From Gammaproteobacteria bacterium UBA2955 (GTDB lineage Bacteria; Pseudomonadota; Gammaproteobacteria; Pseudomonadales; Azotimanducaceae): a DNA stretch of 21,906 bases. The stretch is taken from positions 4,696 through 26,601 of the forward strand of contig DEBN01000160.1 of the NCBI GenBank assembly GCA_002348825.1. Direction: 5' to 3'. The notes below the pieces were generated by a model. It made no database searches. It worked only from the letters and a program-made list of their open reading frames with translations, and was not told the DNA's origin. This document shows positions 12,777 to 20,847 of the stretch, one piece after another (the first letter of the stretch is position 1; each line of letters opens with the position of its first letter). The position numbers were made by a program, and so were the translations under genes.

Positions 12777-14342
12777 ATGTACGATCCAAATCTACCTTAT
12801 GCCTCTGCCCGCGCCCCGGTTGCTGCCGCCAATTTAGTTGCCACGTCTCAGCCGTTGGCAGTGCAGGCGGGCTTGCGGGCTATGCACAAGGGCGGTAACG
12901 CCATGGATGCCGCGCTGGCGGCCGCCATCACCTTGGCGGTGGTTGAGCCGAATAACAATGGCCTGGGGAGCGACGCCTTTTGCTTGCTTTGGGACGGCAC
13001 CGCGGTAGTGGGGCTTAACGCCTCAGGCCGGGCGCCTGCAGGGTGGACGACCGATCGTTTTAGCGGTTTAAGCACGATGCCGGAGTTAGGTTGGGACAGC
13101 GTCACCGTCCCTGGCGCGGTCAGTAGTTGGGTGGCACTCAGCGACAGATATGGTCGACTGGCGTTCGCCGATCTGTTCGAGTCGGCCATTGACTACGCTG
13201 AGGGTGGATTTTTAGTCGGTCCTGAAACCGCGTTCTACTGGCAGTTGCTCGAATCCCACTACGCAGAGTTTGATGCGTTCGGAGAACATTTTCTTCCTGC
13301 GCCGAAGGCCGGTGAACTGTTCAAGCGTCCAGATATGGCACGTTCACTGCGGCTGATTGCGGAGTCCAAGGGCACTGCGTTTTATCAGGGAGAATTGGCT
13401 GAAGCGATTGTTGCGGCAAGCGACGCTCAAGGTGGTTGTTTGACCCTGCAAGATCTGGCTGACCACTCTGCCGACTGGGTGACGCCGATTAGCCAGCGCT
13501 ATAAGCATATTGAGCTGCACGAAATTCCACCGAATGGGCAGGGTTTGGCGGCACAAATTGCGTTGGGCTTGTTGCAGCATTTGCCCGATCAAGCGCTGGA
13601 CTCGGTGGCAGAGGTGCATCAGCAAATTGAGGTTATGAAAATTGCCACGGCGACGGCCGCGAAGCGCTTCGCGGACCCTGCGGCCATGACGGTGAGTGTC
13701 GAAGCATTACTGGACGAAGCCAGTTTGCGAAGGGCGGCTGCCGCCGTGACCGAGCGTGCGATGACGTTGCCACCGGCTGTATTACCGGTCGGGCACGATA
13801 CGGTGTACCTCGCCACCGCGGACGCTAGTGGCATGATGGTGTCGTTTATTCAATCGAACTTTCGCGCCTTTGGGTCGGGAATTGTAATTCCCGGAACCGG
13901 CATCGCTATGCAGAACCGCGGCAGCGGTTTTGTACTCGATGCGGATCACGTCAATTCAGTTGGCCCGAATAAGCGGCCGTTCCATACAATCATCCCTGGC
14001 TTTGTGACCGCACAGGGTCTGCCGGAAATGGCGTTCGGGGTGATGGGTGGACACATGCAACACCAGGGACATGTGCAAATGATCTCTCGAGTTTTCGGCC
14101 ATGGCCAGAACCCGCAGGCCGCCAGCGATGCGCCGCGTTGGCACGTCTTTGAGGACTTTAGTGTGGGTCTCGAACCGGGCTTTGATCCCGAGGTCGCCAA
14201 ACAGCTGAGCGCGCTTGGGCACAAAGTGCGCTTTGATAAACGCACCAGTACCTTTGGCGGCGCGCAACTGATCCAACGGTTAGCCCATGGCTATGTAGGA
14301 GGATCAGATCATCGAAAAGAAGGCCTAGTCGCGGGCTTCTGA
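12777..14342 (+). CDS. Gamma-glutamyltransferase family protein (Ntn hydrolase), cytosolic
   Basis: A protein of 521 residues in the gamma-glutamyltranspeptidase / cephalosporin acylase family. Such proenzymes self-cleave before a Thr that becomes the N-terminal nucleophile; here this should be Thr342 in GHDTVYLATAD, giving chains of about 341 and 180 residues. Other family marks are HKGGNAMDAALAAAITLAVVEP (part), VTVPGAV near 109-115, NGQGLAAQIAL near 253-263 and SNFRAFGSG near 360-368. Unlike secreted E. coli Ggt there is no signal peptide, so it resembles cytosolic YwrD-like members. The usual glycine-rich GGGGF-type loop reads GLGSDAF (62-68). It follows the cytochromes by 171 bases with no clear ribosome site. 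The substrate may be glutathione, a gamma-glutamyl compound or another amide. Confidence 0.85.
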   Translation: MYDPNLPYASARAPVAAANLVATSQPLAVQAGLRAMHKGGNAMDAALAAAITLAVVEPNNNGLGSDAFCLLWDGTAVVGLNASGRAPAGWTTDRFSGLSTMPELGWDSVTVPGAVSSWVALSDRYGRLAFADLFESAIDYAEGGFLVGPETAFYWQLLESHYAEFDAFGEHFLPAPKAGELFKRPDMARSLRLIAESKGTAFYQGELAEAIVAASDAQGGCLTLQDLADHSADWVTPISQRYKHIELHEIPPNGQGLAAQIALGLLQHLPDQALDSVAEVHQQIEVMKIATATAAKRFADPAAMTVSVEALLDEASLRRAAAAVTERAMTLPPAVLPVGHDTVYLATADASGMMVSFIQSNFRAFGSGIVIPGTGIAMQNRGSGFVLDADHVNSVGPNKRPFHTIIPGFVTAQGLPEMAFGVMGGHMQHQGHVQMISRVFGHGQNPQAASDAPRWHVFEDFSVGLEPGFDPEVAKQLSALGHKVRFDKRTSTFGGAQLIQRLAHGYVGGSDHRKEGLVAGF

Positions 14343-14365
14343 TTTGTCGCAATATGCTATGCCAG

Positions 14366-14388
14366 TGAATTATTTTCGGAATAATTCA
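14366..14388. promoter_or_regulatory. Perfect 9-bp inverted repeat upstream of cysD
   Basis: TGAATTATT at 14366-14374 and AATAATTCA at 14380-14388 are perfect inverted copies around a five-base spacer TTCGG. The repeat ends about 30 bases upstream of a consensus -10 box (14419-14424). There is no following T tract, so a regulator-binding operator is more likely than a terminator of the preceding gene. Which regulator is unknown; a CysB-type site is not recognisable. Confidence 0.4.
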
Positions 14389-14418
14389 TAAATTTCGCGT
14401 AAATCAAAGGCTATGGAT

Positions 14419-14424
14419 TATAAT
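14419..14424 (+). promoter_or_regulatory. Consensus -10 box upstream of cysD
   Basis: A perfect TATAAT at 14419-14424. The best -35 is poor (TTCGCG, 14394-14399, 19-base spacer). Transcription would start near 14431, downstream of the ATG at 14423 but upstream of the in-frame ATG at 14489. If the promoter is real, it therefore decides in favour of the shorter CysD. Confidence 0.4.
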
Positions 14425-14488
14425 GTGCACATTGCGACAGCGTCGGCGAAAGGCGCGTCTCGTCACACAGGGCCTCACGGCTAACGTC

Positions 14489-15982
14489 ATGCCGGACTTT
14501 TTAAGCGCTTCACAGCAGCAACTGCTGCGCAACCCAGTCGGTGGTGGGTACTGGGATACGTCGGCGGTTCACGAATTAATGGCGTCAAGCACGGCGCGAT
14601 CAAAGCGTTCGACTGAACGTTTTTTAGCCGATCTCCCCTGGCTGCCAGATACGCTTGGTGTGAGCGAACTCAGCAATGAAGACGGCCGTGGTCTCGTTAT
14701 GACGGTAGCGGAGTCGTTTCAAACGCGGGCCAAACGCGCACGTACAGCGCAATGGATTGTACAAACCGTGGACGTTGGCACCTCGACACTGGTGATGTTG
14801 AACGATGGTCGGCACAGCCGTCGCTGGTGCTGGATTGATGGCGGGTTGGATTTATCCAGTTGGTGTAACGCGCTAACGACGCTGGTAGATGGTCGCGATG
14901 CTGTGCTTTGGCCCCATGCCGCCGCCGTAGTCTGGATGCGGCAATGGGCAGCGGAGCAGGGCGATCATAAATTACATACTCATGCTGGAGTTACCCTAGA
15001 ACTGCCTTTAGGCGCTTACGTACAGCCGCTTCGGGCGACCGTTGAAAGTCTGGCGCGAGGTCCGGAGTTGGCAGCAGAAACAAACGAGTTTGACCATCTC
15101 GGGCGTTTAGAGGCTGAGAGTATTCATATAATGCGCGAGGTCATAGCCCAAGCCGATAACCCGGTGATGCTCTACAGCGTTGGTAAAGACAGTGCCGTGA
15201 TGCTGCATATTGCCCGGAAAGCCTTTTATCCAAGCCCTCCGCCGTTCCCACTCCTGCATGTGGACACGCGCTGGAAGTTCCAACAAATGTACGATTTTCG
15301 CGACCGCATGGCGCAAGCCAGTGGCATGCCATTAATTGTGCATGTCAACCCCGAGGGCGTGGCGCGTAATATCAATCCTTTTGATCATGGCAGCGCCGTA
15401 CATACAGATGTGATGAAAACCCAAGGCTTGCGTCAGGCGTTAGAGCAGCATGCTTTCGATGTGGCCTTTGGTGGTGCACGCCGCGATGAAGAAAAAAGCC
15501 GAGCCAAAGAGCGGGTGTTCTCGTTCCGTACGGAAGCGCATCGTTGGGACCCAAAAAACCAGCGGCCGGAGTTGTGGAATATTTACAACGGCTACAAACG
15601 CTCCGGAGAGAGCATTCGAGTGTTCCCGCTGTCGAATTGGACGGAATTGGATATTTGGCAATACATCCGGCGTGAGGGCATTGCCATTGTGCCGTTGTAT
15701 TTTGCTGCGAAACGGCCGGTTGTCGAGCGCGATGGATTAATCCTGATGGTCGATGATGATCGATTCCTGTTGCACCCCGGAGAGCAAGTGCGCATGCAAC
15801 AGGTGCGCTTTCGCACCCTTGGTTGTTATCCACTTACCGGGGCAGTGGTGTCCGCAGCCAAAACATTGGATGACATTTTGCTGGAGTTGCTGCAAAGCCA
15901 CACCAGCGAACGCCAGGGTCGGGCGATCGATACTGACGAATCGTCGTCGATGGAGAAAAAGAAACAAGAGGGATACTTCTAA
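14489..15982 (+). CDS. cysD: Sulfate adenylyltransferase subunit 2 (CysD) with unrecognised N-terminal domain
   Basis: Small catalytic subunit of ATP sulfurylase, which with CysN makes adenosine 5'-phosphosulfate from sulfate and ATP. The last 297 of 497 residues (201-497) are a full CysD (E. coli, 302): [12 protein letters not shown], the PP-loop SVGKDS at 230-235, [39 protein letters not shown] and the C-terminal KKKQEGYF. The first 200 residues are extra, Trp-rich (LPWLP, RRWCW, SSWCN, VWMRQW) and match no domain I know. One CysD core residue is changed: DTRWKF (Arg261) where the family has DTGWKF. The start is uncertain: ATG 14489 is preferred because a TATAAT overlaps the earlier in-frame ATG 14423, whose extra 22 residues are very basic. 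The stop abuts the cysNC start. Confidence 0.85.
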
Positions 15983-17869
15983 ATGCCTGCGCCGTCGCCC
16001 ACCAAACAGAGTGCAGCGGTGCAGCGGTACCTTGAGGCGCAAAGTAATCTCGACTTACTGCGCTTTATGACCTGTGGATCGGTTGACGACGGTAAAAGCA
16101 CGCTTATTGGTCGCCTGTTATTCGAGGCTCAAGTGCTCTTCAGTGATCAGGTTGAGGCACTAAAGGAAGAGTCGAAACGTCAGGGCACTCAGGCCGGAGC
16201 CATCGACTTTGCATTGTTGGTCGATGGCCTGGCGGCCGAGCGTGAGCAAGGTATCACGATCGATGTGGCGTATCGTTTTTTTTCGACCGCGCGACGTAAA
16301 TTTATCGTCGCCGACACGCCGGGCCATGAACAGTACACTCGCAATATGGCGACGGGAGCGTCGACCGCAGACTTGGCGGTTATCTTGGTGGATGCTGCGC
16401 AAGGTCTCTTAGATCAGACTCGCCGGCATTCTTTTATTGCCTCGCTGTTGGGCGTGCGGCACGTGGTTCTGGCGGTTAACAAAATGGACCGGGTGGACTA
16501 CGACTCAGCCGTGTTCGAAGAGATTCTGGCTCAGTACCACAGCTTCGCTAAGCGTTTGGACTTTACCGACGTTACCGCCATTCCGGTGTCTGCTCTGTGC
16601 GGTGATAATGTGGTTGAGTATTCAACGAATATGCCTTGGTATGAGGGTCCGGCGCTGCTGCATCACTTGGAGCATGTCGTCATCGCGCCTGCTCAATCCT
16701 CCCAAGCGATGCGGTTTCCAGTGCAGTGGGTGAATAGACCGAACGCGGATTTTCGTGGGTTTAGCGGCACCCTTGCCGAAGGCACCAGCAAACCCGGAGA
16801 TCAGGTTCAAGTGCTACCCTCAGGGCAGATCGCGTGTATTGAACGTATTCTGCTCGGGCACAGGGAACTGCCACAACTAGCGAAAGGTCAGGCCGCGACG
16901 TTGACCCTCGATCGAGCGCTCGATGTCTCTCGGGGCGACATCATCGTCGCCGCAGACAGTCCGTGTGCAATGGCCGATCAATTTGACGCTACTTTGGTGT
17001 GGATGGATTCAGCTGAGGGATTGGTCGGGCGCTCTTATTGGTTGTTGTTAAACGGTAATCGGGCTAACGGTTCGCTGACAGATATTAAGTATACGTTTAA
17101 CGTTAACGCGTTAGAGCCCACGCCGGCGCAGGTATTGCGGTTGAATGATGTGGCTCGAGTCGAAGTGAGTCTCGACCGGGCGGTTGCTTTCGCGGCCTAT
17201 AAAGACAGTCGTGCTCTGGGGTCCTTTGTGTTGGTAGATCGTTATACCCATGCGACGGTAGCGGCTGGAATGATTAACTTTGCCCTGCGTCGAGCGGACA
17301 ACATCCATCCGCAACGCAGCGAGGTAGACCGCAGTGCGCGTTGGCGGCTTTTAGGGCATCAGGGCAAAGTGGTTTGGTTTACCGGGTTGAGTGGTTCCGG
17401 CAAGTCGACCATTGCGAATGCGTTGGAACAGCAACTGCATCAGCGGGGGGTGCTGACGTATATCCTGGACGGCGACAATATTCGTCGCGGTTTGAATCGA
17501 GATTTAGGATTTACCGACGCCGATCGGGTTGAAAACATCCGTCGTACTGCCGAAGTTGCTAAATTACTTCTAGACGCAGGTGTCGTGGTAATCACCGCAT
17601 TTATATCGCCGTTCCGGTCCGAGCGGGATATGGCTCGTGACATGTTTGAGCCGGGCGAGTTCATCGAAGTGTATTTAGATGTGCCGCTGTCGGTTGTTGA
17701 GCAACGCGACCCTAAGGGCTTATATCGCAAGGCGCGGGCCGGTGAGTTGCCACACTTTACTGGTATCGATTCGGTTTACGAAGCGCCGCCGACCCCTGAG
17801 GTCAGGTTAGACACAGATGTCCTGACTGTGGATCAGTGTGTCTCGCGGCTACTTGAGTTCGTTGGATAA
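15983..17869 (+). CDS. cysNC: Bifunctional sulfate adenylyltransferase subunit 1 / adenylylsulfate kinase (CysNC)
   Basis: A 628-residue fusion. The N-terminal part (about 1-440) is the CysN GTPase that drives APS synthesis by CysD, with P-loop GSVDDGKST at 32-40, [12 protein letters not shown] and NKMDRVDY. An EF-Tu-like beta-barrel region follows. The C-terminal part (about 445-628) is CysC, which phosphorylates APS to PAPS, with P-loop GLSGSGKST at 468-476, ISPFRSERD containing the kinase serine, and [17 protein letters not shown]. The ATG at 15983 follows the cysD stop directly, with AGAGGGA about 10 bases upstream. With CysD it forms a complete PAPS-making unit. No PAPS reductase or sulfotransferase gene is present here, so PAPS could serve either assimilation or sulfation. 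Confidence 0.94.
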
Positions 17870-17969
17870 CTGGCTGCGTCGCGTTGGTGTTGGCGAGGTG
17901 CTGTGCGGACGTTACTGTGTACGGTTGGAACGTGAAGTGGCTTGGAAACTAGTGATATTGTCAGCAAGC

Positions 17970-18938
17970 ATGTCGCAAAAAATACGCGGTTCGCGCGCCG
18001 TTTTGTTCGGGCTGTTGGGTTTTCTGCTGGGCGGCTGTGCTCAAGCGGATCGAACATTGTCTATTGCCACCGGCGGTCCCGCCGGCTTGTATTACCCGTT
18101 TGGGGGCGGCATGGCATCGGTGTGGTCGGCGCAGCTTGCCGATGTCAATGTCAAAGCCGAGGTCACGGGGGGGTCCATCACCAATGTGACTCAAGTTGCA
18201 CGGTTGGAAAGTGATCTAGGTATTGCGATGGCCGATGTGACTACAGACGCCTATCTCGGCGAGGGTCTATTTAACACCCCGTTGCCGCTGCGAGTGCTGT
18301 TTACCGCATATCCAAACATCGTTCATATACTGACGCTAGAAGGCAGCGGCATCACCAGTGTGGCCGACTTGCGCGGCAAGCGTGTGGCTATGGGCGCGCA
18401 GGGCTCGGGGACAGCGGTCGCGGCCGCAAACACGTTGCGCGGGCTCGGAGTGCAGATCGATACCATCGCGCCGCGCTACCTGAACTTTGCTGCCACCACT
18501 GCAGCGTTAAAAGATGGAACCGTCGATGCGGGATTCATTGTAGGTGGTCTTGGCATTGCTGCGGTCACGGAGTTGGCGGTGACGCGCCCACTGCGCTTGA
18601 TCAGCTTGAAAGCCGAAGAATTGGAGCAATTGGTAAGCCATTACCCAGCCTATAGCGGTTACCAAATACCTGCAGCGACCTATAACGGTGTGAATTCCGC
18701 GACCACCGCGCTGGGTATTTGGAGCGCTGTGGTTGTGCATGCAAGTATGCCCAGCGAATTAGCGTTTCGGCTGACCTGCACGGTGTATCAGCAGCGTCAA
18801 GCGCTGTTGCAGATTTCACCGGTTGTACAGGCCATGACCTTGGAAAACATTCATCGTCTGCCGGCGGTCCCATTACACGCGGGTACGCAACAGTACCTTC
18901 AGGACCCCACCCAGGATTGTGGAGGCGCTGGTGAGTGA
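17970..18938 (+). CDS. TAXI-family TRAP transporter solute receptor, lipoprotein
   Basis: Periplasmic binding protein of 322 residues that captures a ligand, usually an organic acid, for a TRAP transporter. The N-terminus is a lipoprotein signal with lipobox L-G-G-Cys23, so it is membrane-tethered instead of free. The mature part opens with LSIATGGPAGLYYPFGGGMA, the TAXI-family hallmark, followed by EVTGGSITNV and DLRGKRVAMGAQGSGTA. The start at 17970 places the signal peptide at the N-terminus; an in-frame opening from 17838 overlaps cysNC and would bury the signal. It lies 100 bases after cysNC on the same strand and overlaps the permease gene by eight bases. The ligand is unknown; linkage to sulfate activation may be incidental. 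Confidence 0.85.
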   Translation: MSQKIRGSRAVLFGLLGFLLGGCAQADRTLSIATGGPAGLYYPFGGGMASVWSAQLADVNVKAEVTGGSITNVTQVARLESDLGIAMADVTTDAYLGEGLFNTPLPLRVLFTAYPNIVHILTLEGSGITSVADLRGKRVAMGAQGSGTAVAAANTLRGLGVQIDTIAPRYLNFAATTAALKDGTVDAGFIVGGLGIAAVTELAVTRPLRLISLKAEELEQLVSHYPAYSGYQIPAATYNGVNSATTALGIWSAVVVHASMPSELAFRLTCTVYQQRQALLQISPVVQAMTLENIHRLPAVPLHAGTQQYLQDPTQDCGGAGE

Positions 18939-20847
18939 GACCCCCCAGCCTGCAGATCCAGAGCTAAGCCCGCGCCGCTGGCCTTGGGTTATTACGCTCT
19001 TGGCAGCGCTGTTGTCGCTGTTTCAACTGTGGCAACCGCTGGCCGGATTTGTGCCGCCGGGGGCCGTACCTTTTGAAGCGGTTCTCGGTATGCAGCCGGC
19101 GGTGTACTTTCGTCCGGTGCACTTGTGCTGGATTTTGTGTCTCGGGTTGTGGATTTACCCATTGCAGATTCGCGGTGCGAAATACCCTTGGGTTGATCTC
19201 TTGGTTTGTCTGCTGGTGCTGTGGGCGACTCTGCGGATCCTGCGATTTGATTACTCAGGCATTGAGCATTTACTCAATGGTCTCAGTCAGCCCGATTTTG
19301 TGGCGGGGTTGATTATTGTGGCAGCAACTCTGGAACTCGCACGTCGATCCATCGGGCCGGTGATGTGTGGCATTGGCTTGGTGTTTATTGTCTATGCCGC
19401 GTTTGGCAACGTTTTACCCGATGTGTTGGCGACGCGCGGTTTTAGTTTTGAACGCATCATCCGGTTTCAGGTCTTTACCGGCGCGGGTCTCTACGGAGCG
19501 CCACTTGGCATTGCTGCAGGCGCGGTGTTTAGTTTTGTCTTATTCGGAGCTTTTCTGCAGGTCACGGGGGCCGGCAAAATGCTGATTGACCTGTCTTTTG
19601 CTGCTGCCGGTAAGTCCAAAGGTGGCCCCGCCAAAGCATCGGTATTGGCCTCGGCGGCGATGGGTTCGATTTCGGGCAGCGCCATCGCTAACACCGTCAC
19701 CACCGGTGCCTTGACCATTCCAATGATGAAAAAACTCGGATATAAGCCGGCGCAAGCGGCCGGAATCGAGGCGGCGGCGTCTACTGGTGGTCAGATAATG
19801 CCGCCAATTATGGGCGCTGGCGCCTTTGTAATGGCGGAATTTACCAAGACACCCTACGGTGACATCGTATGGATGGCTCTGGTGCCAGCGCTGCTGTATT
19901 TTTTCTCGGTACTGTTGTACGTCCACCTTATGGCGACCAAGGCCGGTTTCGTGGCGGCCACCGAGCGGCCTGAGGTGCTGCCGATATTTCTCAACGGGCT
20001 GCATTTCTTTCTGCCGCTGGCGCTGATTACCGTGCTGTTGCTGCAAAATTACTCGCCGTTGCTGGTAGGCGCAGCGGGCTGTGCCGCAGTGGTTGTAGCC
20101 AGTCTATTGCGAACGCATACGCGTATTGGGTTTAGCGATATCGTAGCGGGTTTGAGACAGGGTGCGACGCTTGCGGTTCCCATTTCCGTGGCCTGTGCGG
20201 TGGCAGGGATTGTGGTCGGCACAATAGGGCAAACCGGTGTCGGCCTGCAATTTACCGAGTCGGTGGTGTCATTGAGCGATGGCCGCTTGTGGTTGGCGTT
20301 ACTGTTGGTTGCGATTGCGGCGTTGGTGCTGGGTATGGGGCTACCGGCCACGGCGGCCTACATCGTGTTGGCGGTGATGACGGGCCCAGCCTTACAGGAA
20401 CTCGGCCTTGCGCTGATCACCGCGCATATGATTATTTTTTGGCTAGCTCAGAGTTCCAACGTGACACCGCCGATTGCACTGGCTGCCTTTGCCGGTGCGG
20501 GGATTGCCGGCGCTCAGCCCATGGCGTCTGCGGTCTCGGCGCTGAAGCTGGCGAATGGCCTCTTCGTAATTCCGCTGATGATGGCCTATGCGCCGTTGCT
20601 GTTAACCGACACCCAAGGCTGGCCTATTGTGGTGTTGGCGGGGGCGGTGACCCTACTGTTGATTGTTATGCTGGCTATGGCGTTGGAAGGTTTTATGTGG
20701 GCGACCGTGCCAGGTTATTTGCGTCTTGCAGCCGTGCTGTCTGCAGGGTTATTGGTCTGGCCAGAGGCCACTGTGCGTTCGATTGGTGCGGTGTTGGCGG
20801 TTGTGCTGCTCGTGCTCAATTGGCTGGGGGCTCGGCGTTCTGTCTGA
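18931..20847 (+). CDS. TRAP transporter permease, fused 4TM/12TM (DctQM type)
   Basis: Inner-membrane permease of 638 residues combining the small (DctQ-like, N-terminal) and large (DctM-like) TRAP subunits in one chain. It has more than a dozen hydrophobic segments. The large-subunit core contains the conserved SGSAIANTVTTGALTIP and EAAASTGGQIMPPIMGAGAF around residues 250-290, and a second scoop-like motif LGMGLPATAAYIV near 470. It uses a cation gradient to import the ligand delivered by the TAXI lipoprotein. The GTG start at 18931 is chosen because GGAGG is at 18921-18925, five bases upstream, and the gene overlaps the receptor stop by eight bases (translational coupling). A GTG at 18919 is less likely. 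Its last 133 bases are overlapped antisense by the next gene. Confidence 0.92.
   Translation: MSETPQPADPELSPRRWPWVITLLAALLSLFQLWQPLAGFVPPGAVPFEAVLGMQPAVYFRPVHLCWILCLGLWIYPLQIRGAKYPWVDLLVCLLVLWATLRILRFDYSGIEHLLNGLSQPDFVAGLIIVAATLELARRSIGPVMCGIGLVFIVYAAFGNVLPDVLATRGFSFERIIRFQVFTGAGLYGAPLGIAAGAVFSFVLFGAFLQVTGAGKMLIDLSFAAAGKSKGGPAKASVLASAAMGSISGSAIANTVTTGALTIPMMKKLGYKPAQAAGIEAAASTGGQIMPPIMGAGAFVMAEFTKTPYGDIVWMALVPALLYFFSVLLYVHLMATKAGFVAATERPEVLPIFLNGLHFFLPLALITVLLLQNYSPLLVGAAGCAAVVVASLLRTHTRIGFSDIVAGLRQGATLAVPISVACAVAGIVVGTIGQTGVGLQFTESVVSLSDGRLWLALLLVAIAALVLGMGLPATAAYIVLAVMTGPALQELGLALITAHMIIFWLAQSSNVTPPIALAAFAGAGIAGAQPMASAVSALKLANGLFVIPLMMAYAPLLLTDTQGWPIVVLAGAVTLLLIVMLAMALEGFMWATVPGYLRLAAVLSAGLLVWPEATVRSIGAVLAVVLLVLNWLGARRSV

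Follow-up and report, generated by a model that had tools for sequence, protein, structure and literature searches.

Some bacterial enzymes, PutA and BirA among them, repress their own operon, and their DNA-binding domains are ordinary ribbon–helix–helix or helix-turn-helix (HTH) modules. Transposon ancestry is found in TldR, which derives from TnpB and, to our knowledge, is not fused to an enzyme. Here we analyse a cysD gene with an N-terminal extension of about 200 residues, carried on a stretch of 21,906 nucleotides from Gammaproteobacteria bacterium UBA2955 (DEBN01000160.1, positions 4,696–26,601, forward strand; the whole stretch is referred to as the window). The extension is probably a captured, catalytically dead transposase domain that is predicted to let CysD bind and regulate its own operon. 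The proposed logic is that of PutA and BirA, in which an enzyme binds its own promoter and so reports on the pathway it serves, and an operator-like element is likewise present at the promoter of the window cysD; the difference is that the proposed DNA-binding part would here be a transposase remnant. TldR resembles it as a transposon-derived protein turned regulator, and differs in belonging to the RNA-guided transcription factors of bacteria (PMC13418256). In eukaryotes, the DNA-binding part of a transposase has been taken up by host genes, as in the capture of a Tc1/mariner HTH by F-box genes (PMC12062965) and in transposase-derived transcription factors and host–transposase fusions (PMC10027918, PMC11893794); here, by contrast, the partners are a bacterial metabolic enzyme and its own promoter. 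The open-access literature, with its partial coverage, gave no report of an extended CysD and none linking IS630 with CysD.

The closest described counterpart of the protein itself is the CysD of GTP-regulated ATP sulfurylase (P. syringae, PDB 1zun), the full length of which is matched by the C-terminal ~295 residues of the window protein; a CysN-type gene follows the window cysD, as expected for this system. Scores exceed the curated cut-offs of TIGR02039 (495.6 bits versus 396.6, model positions 2–294 of 294) and NF009214 (524.7 bits versus 413). Judged by the full-length family match and the adjoining CysN-type gene, the window protein is a CysD, with presumed ATP sulfurylase activity. Its reading frame is open over 14423–15982, an open reading frame (ORF) of 519 amino acids (aa), and ATG 14489 is the likely start, giving a protein of 497 aa, because the starts of homologues correspond to it and ATG 14423 sits at the junction of a −10-like box and a conserved promoter element. 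NCBIfam CysD models begin at residues 205–227 of the 519-aa ORF (183–205 of 497) and run to the end of the protein, and the Pfam PAPS_reduct match begins at residue 246 of the 519-aa ORF; from the start points of the CysD model matches we place the extension roughly at residues 1–182 to 1–202 of the 497-aa protein. An earlier sequence-only reading of this DNA had let ordinary CysD begin at residue 201 with LEAESIHI, which is wrong, as this motif begins at residue 207 of 497. Its claim of a ~200-residue segment fused in frame to a complete CysD is borne out by family matches, homologues and their alignment, and the segment is indeed unrecognised: residues 1–202 match no family in the Pfam and NCBIfam copies used, neither of which holds a model for the domain, and the best match of any of 22 versions of the extension to Pfam was only 0.008. 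Ordinary CysD copies in a set of 58 related genomes have frames of 305–354 aa and lack the extension.

A protein search with residues 1–205 returned three other proteins, 54% identical, two of which are full fusions of 498 aa. The alignment search gave 2230 proteins at 1e-60 or better, most of them expected to be CysD; among the matches listed (120 of 2230), lengths are mostly 480–520 aa and source names include Pseudomonadales bacterium and Candidatus Azotimanducaceae bacterium. The protein searches also returned two short pieces, of 169 and 130 aa, that lack a CysD domain; one is named partial. When 106 fused rows were aligned, including the window's own database copy, nine residues proved invariant: W22, R40, R44, R85, Q92, R108, W113, P142 and R151. 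The remark of the sequence-only reading that the segment is rich in tryptophan has some substance, to the extent that W22 and W113 are among them.

CysD was matched in 36 of the 58 related genomes. These comprise 28 of the 37 genomes of the genus (27 of 36 without the window genome) and eight genomes of other families, which have ordinary CysD frames of 305–346 aa. The extension is open in 27 of the 28 CysD-bearing genus genomes, contig ends or Ns cutting three. Among the 27 others in the genus, 25 match with the extension, G004 has a divergent version and G022 an in-frame stop, so that the frame is kept open in 26. The stop in G022 (locus L029) lies just 5′ of the CysD part, in a stretch with Ns, and is either a true break or an assembly fault. 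In wider searches, the domain was found in 9 of the 390 genomes searched in the order (four belong to the genus, one to g26 in the same family, two to family f15 and one each to f38 and f41), in two more families among 369 genomes of the class, and within family f38 in 7 of 99 genomes, with one long form in addition. Every match of the order, class and f38 searches lies within a frame of at least 495 aa, and those read are fused to CysD. The idea that a sequencing error had joined two separate genes does not fit these results, as full fusions recur and the genome searches saw the domain only in CysD frames. Collected in this way, the extended homologues show a conserved extension in the genus and in further gammaproteobacterial families. 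Its dN/dS is 0.10–0.33, compared with 0.010–0.036 for CysD, in 13 of 14 pairs (one undefined), with dS above 1 (saturated) in several of them; the extension is under purifying selection. At L030 (genome G006) and at L255–L271 (genus g417), the genomes hold an ordinary cysD in addition to the extended one, and both forms coexist.

The path to transposases leads through a longer form of the protein. The bridge locus lies in genome G849 (genus g417, family f38), where a marginal match with E 9.4e-4 proved to be a 590-aa CysD frame. This long form is present in 10 of the 17 g417 genomes, all ten of which also have a second, ordinary-length CysD match; that of G878 holds an internal stop. The front part of the long form L183 matches the IS630 model NF033545 (4e-14; 52.8 bits, below the cut-off of 100) and HTH_29 (1.1e-5), and comparison of a profile built on the ten long forms with one built on 17 IS630 rows, three of which duplicate others, gave E 3.9e-22. 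In hhalign comparisons, a profile of 110 window-type extensions scored 41.1 against the long forms (E 2.5e-5, probability 75%; best of 200 column shuffles 23.6), 46.0 against the merged long-form and IS630 profile (E 8.1e-6, 84%, 151 colinear columns) and 33.3 against IS630 alone (E 6.6e-4, probability 27%; best of 100 shuffles 19.7). The colinear match spans 151–153 columns and corresponds, in order, to the second HTH and the core of IS630 transposases, which are of Tc1/mariner type; residues 20–84 of the extension, including the invariant W22, R40 and R44, align with the second HTH region and linker. An IS3-type rve profile gave 18.3 against the extension (E 0.1, not significant) and 27.9 against the long form (E 0.0047), both scores without a shuffle baseline, and a MerR-type winged HTH profile gave 13.1 against the extension, with a local score of 11.6 below the 16.1 of the best of 60 column shuffles. 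When the loci fetched for transposases were cut into six-frame pieces and searched with hmmsearch, IS630 transposases again ranked first (E 5e-4 and 7e-4). Pfam and NCBIfam scans found no NF033545 or DDE_3 match in the window protein, and neither model had a match in the window's own genome; the direct model match is confined to the g417 long form.

The GDE and DN-like acids of IS630 transposases are catalytic. They are present in the IS630 rows shown, whereas the long form has KGGI and HS at those places. The window form is non-acidic near the aligned places of the first two catalytic acids (Q92 and P142, by an approximate mapping), and the region of the third is absent from the extension. 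A D-x-R-x4-W motif is common to long and short forms and absent from the IS630 rows shown. Unlike an IS630 transposase, the window domain appears to have neither the first HTH nor the acidic catalytic residues, and is fused to an enzyme. AlphaFold models the domain alone as helices plus a core (pLDDT 89.8, pTM 0.85), and the top VIA rows for the prediction are integrase and RNase H cores, the resemblance to the RNase H fold being weak. Of the checks proposed by the sequence-only reading, profile–profile comparison points to an IS630-type transposase as the source, and structure prediction agrees with it only weakly. There is fair support for this derivation, and fair support that the catalytic acids, and catalysis with them, were lost.

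In a tree of 53 CysD rows, one long form and all 41 extended rows fall on the same side of a branch with 99/97 support. This grouping fits a single capture of the transposase by cysD, which is the most likely history. An independent second fusion for g417, which we had at first expected, is less likely, as the tree puts the one long form included sister to the extended clade at 99/97. The g417 long form, which has both HTHs where the short form lacks the first, is a likely surviving intermediate. The window row itself has a long end branch (0.35), beyond its genus kin, and its nearest row is 83% identical. In G865 (C17, 51418–51960), a match to long-form residues 1–176 lies in a separate 275-aa frame ~1.6 kb 5′ of the fused cysD, and is perhaps a standalone or duplicated copy of the domain. 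An ordinary-length CysD frame in G879 (L254) shares 88% identity with the long form over the CysD part; it is possibly a long form that lost its extension.

The DNA 5′ of extended cysD loci carries a repeated inverted motif of two 16-bp arms at a spacing of 79–83 bp. A matrix built from 23 genus loci has the consensus TTGTCGTAAAATGCAA, and the pair was counted as present when at most 5 of 500 shuffles scored as high and the spacing was 79–83. By this rule, 25 of 25 genus loci carry the pair, namely the 23 training loci and two further ones, L028 and L076; among short-form loci of other lineages, all held out from the matrix, 11 of 13 carry it. The window pair, from a locus that is also in the training set, was equalled by 0 of 500 shuffles. 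L094 and L143 pass narrowly (3 and 4 of 500 shuffles); of the two misses, L142 has 6 of 500 at spacing 82, and L096 has its best pair at spacing 71, with a pair at 81 scoring 10.4. The pair occurs in 0 of 31 ordinary-cysD rows (two rows repeat others). It therefore co-occurs with the short-form extension and not with cysD as such. Upstream of ten long-form cysD genes (L244–L253) lies a different conserved promoter block of ~70 bp (AAGACA...ATGTTTAACA...TTGTCA...), perhaps the long forms' own operator.

Both arms read TGTCT in the six g93 loci (with TGACT in one arm of L178) and in L142. A change of E43 to D was considered as the specificity switch and rejected, since g93 proteins have D with TGTCT but L142 has E with TGTCT. 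In the window's own genome, the pattern has one exact match, at cysD, with a one-mismatch partner beside it; with two mismatches allowed, 315 matches compare with 243 for the reversed pattern. In a number of loci, as read by eye, arm B adjoins an AT-rich −10-like hexamer, which is TATAAT in the window. Because of this hexamer, arm B would lie over the supposed transcription start, a usual position for a repressor. A scan of 14250–14520 for the sigma-70 consensus found no full promoter. The pair sits only 5′ of cysD. A simple origin of the operator from terminal repeats is not supported: the pair bears no resemblance to the repeats at the ends of L201–L203, which are nearest to the long form among the IS630 elements compared; the end repeats of the IS630 elements L204 and L210 start with GTGTC and are loosely like the motif.

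We hypothesize that a cysD gene in Gammaproteobacteria took up an IS630-family (Tc1/mariner-type) transposase at its 5′ end, most likely once, and that the window lineage then lost the first HTH and the catalytic acids. What was left would be a ~200-residue domain made of a helical part, the former second HTH, and an RNase H-like core. This domain may retain DNA binding and recognise the inverted pair at the cysD promoter, so that CysD would repress, or at least regulate, its own cysD–cysNC operon. A dimer or a larger CysD complex would probably bridge the two sites, and binding might be tuned by the state of the enzyme, with substrate or the CysN partner bound. We judge self-regulation of this kind to be the probable explanation, because the domain appears transposase-derived and the promoter element tracks the short form rather than cysD. 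Three main cautions weigh against it: the profile probabilities for the transposase link are only modest; the pair is found in 0 of 10 g417 long-form rows; and the extension has a slightly negative charge. We are evenly divided on a further proposal, that protein and operator co-evolved after the IS630 capture, catalysis being lost, DNA binding kept and a paired operator arising to give a self-regulating sulfate-activation operon; it is suggested by the joint change of the two arms, TGTCG giving way to TGTCT, in the g93 lineage and in L142.

The transposase-derived extension could instead now serve the enzyme, in CysNC assembly, stability, allostery or tethering, with a separate transcription factor binding the pair. 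DNA binding by the extension is only predicted, its charge is slightly negative, and a shared operon history could carry extension and pair together. However, the pair follows the short-form extension rather than cysD, and cysD and the CysN-type gene are the only ones to remain together in three loci where the neighbours differ. By eye, without a family search, no regulator was recognised in the ORFs that neighbour cysD in the window. A count over 40 genus genomes gave 40 occurrences of the pattern pair, of which 16 lie at cysD and 24 at other places; the reversed control gave 33. Binding of the pair by CysB is unlikely, as genomes with ordinary cysD have CysB but lack the pair, and the weak pair of G427 stands in a genome with no CysB match. 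We consider this division of labour rather unlikely. Replacement of CysB is likewise not supported: of 40 genomes with and without the extension, 38 have CysB-like matches (E 1e-40 or better), some few of which are only 44–50% identical.

The sequence-only reading had suggested that the extension could regulate ATP sulfurylase, tether it or add a step to the use of APS or PAPS. In the genome matches examined, the domain is joined to the catalytic subunit, and its nine invariant residues, five of them arginine, could bind nucleotide or sulfate. Yet no nucleotide-binding family was matched, and transposase ancestry with a co-occurring promoter element favours DNA as the partner, which makes a direct action on catalysis improbable. 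That reading is partly supported overall: the extension is regulatory in the explanation we favour, where it is likely to act on the gene, through the cysD promoter, and not on the enzyme.

It is very improbable that the inverted pair forms an RNA stem in the leader instead of serving as two DNA sites. Arms do pair better with their own partner than with those of other loci (0.796 versus 0.767, with 21 of 2000 reassignments as high), but the gain is small and the statistic ignores kinship, some loci would have C–A mismatches (L007, L011 and L024), and the −10-like box seen by eye beside arm B would put arm A 5′ of the transcript. We give hardly any credence to the extension as a decaying remnant without function, despite a dN/dS several to about twenty times that of CysD and the in-frame stop in one genome, given the dN/dS of 0.10–0.33 in 13 of 14 pairs, the nine residues invariant in 106 rows and its retention across families.

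Table 1. Features at the cysD locus, in window coordinates; domain and operator assignments are predictions.
Feature	Position	Strand	Remark
Gamma-glutamyltransferase-like ORF, 5′ of cysD	12777..14342	+	Stop codon 1 base from arm A
Operator-like arm A, TTGTCGCAATATGCTA	14344..14359	+	Inverted partner at spacing 81
−10-like hexamer TATAAT, directly 5′ of arm B	14419..14424	+	Read by eye
Operator-like arm B, CTGTCGCAATGTGCAC on minus strand	14425..14440	-	Would lie over the supposed start of transcription
cysD with N-terminal extension, 497 aa plus stop	14489..15982	+	
N-terminal extension, residues 1–202, putative IS630-transposase-derived domain	14489..15094	+	
Residues 20–84	14546..14740	+	Predicted helices 24–32, 39–47, 71–84
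Residues 85–175	14741..15013	+	Predicted beta-beta-beta-alpha-beta-alpha core
CysD proper, residues 203–497	15095..15979	+	
Next gene, CysN–CysC-type fusion, 628 aa	15983..17869	+	From the ORF list

The genes on either side of cysD are named from sequence features: we take the upstream ORF to be gamma-glutamyltransferase-like from its sequence type, and the downstream gene to be a CysN–CysC fusion from its motifs. Directly 3′ of the latter, at 17838–20847, lie what are presumably a solute receptor and a fused permease, like a TAXI-type TRAP transporter; a similar receptor ORF is found at L001 (13793–14863), behind other genes.

If the proposed explanation is true, a core metabolic enzyme has acquired self-regulation by fusion to a mobile-element protein, which would be a bacterial counterpart of the eukaryotic host–transposase fusions. 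What would be new is the combination of transposase domestication with self-regulation of an enzyme. Because the g417 long form with both HTHs survives beside the short form, as a likely intermediate, the path from transposase to regulator would be traceable.
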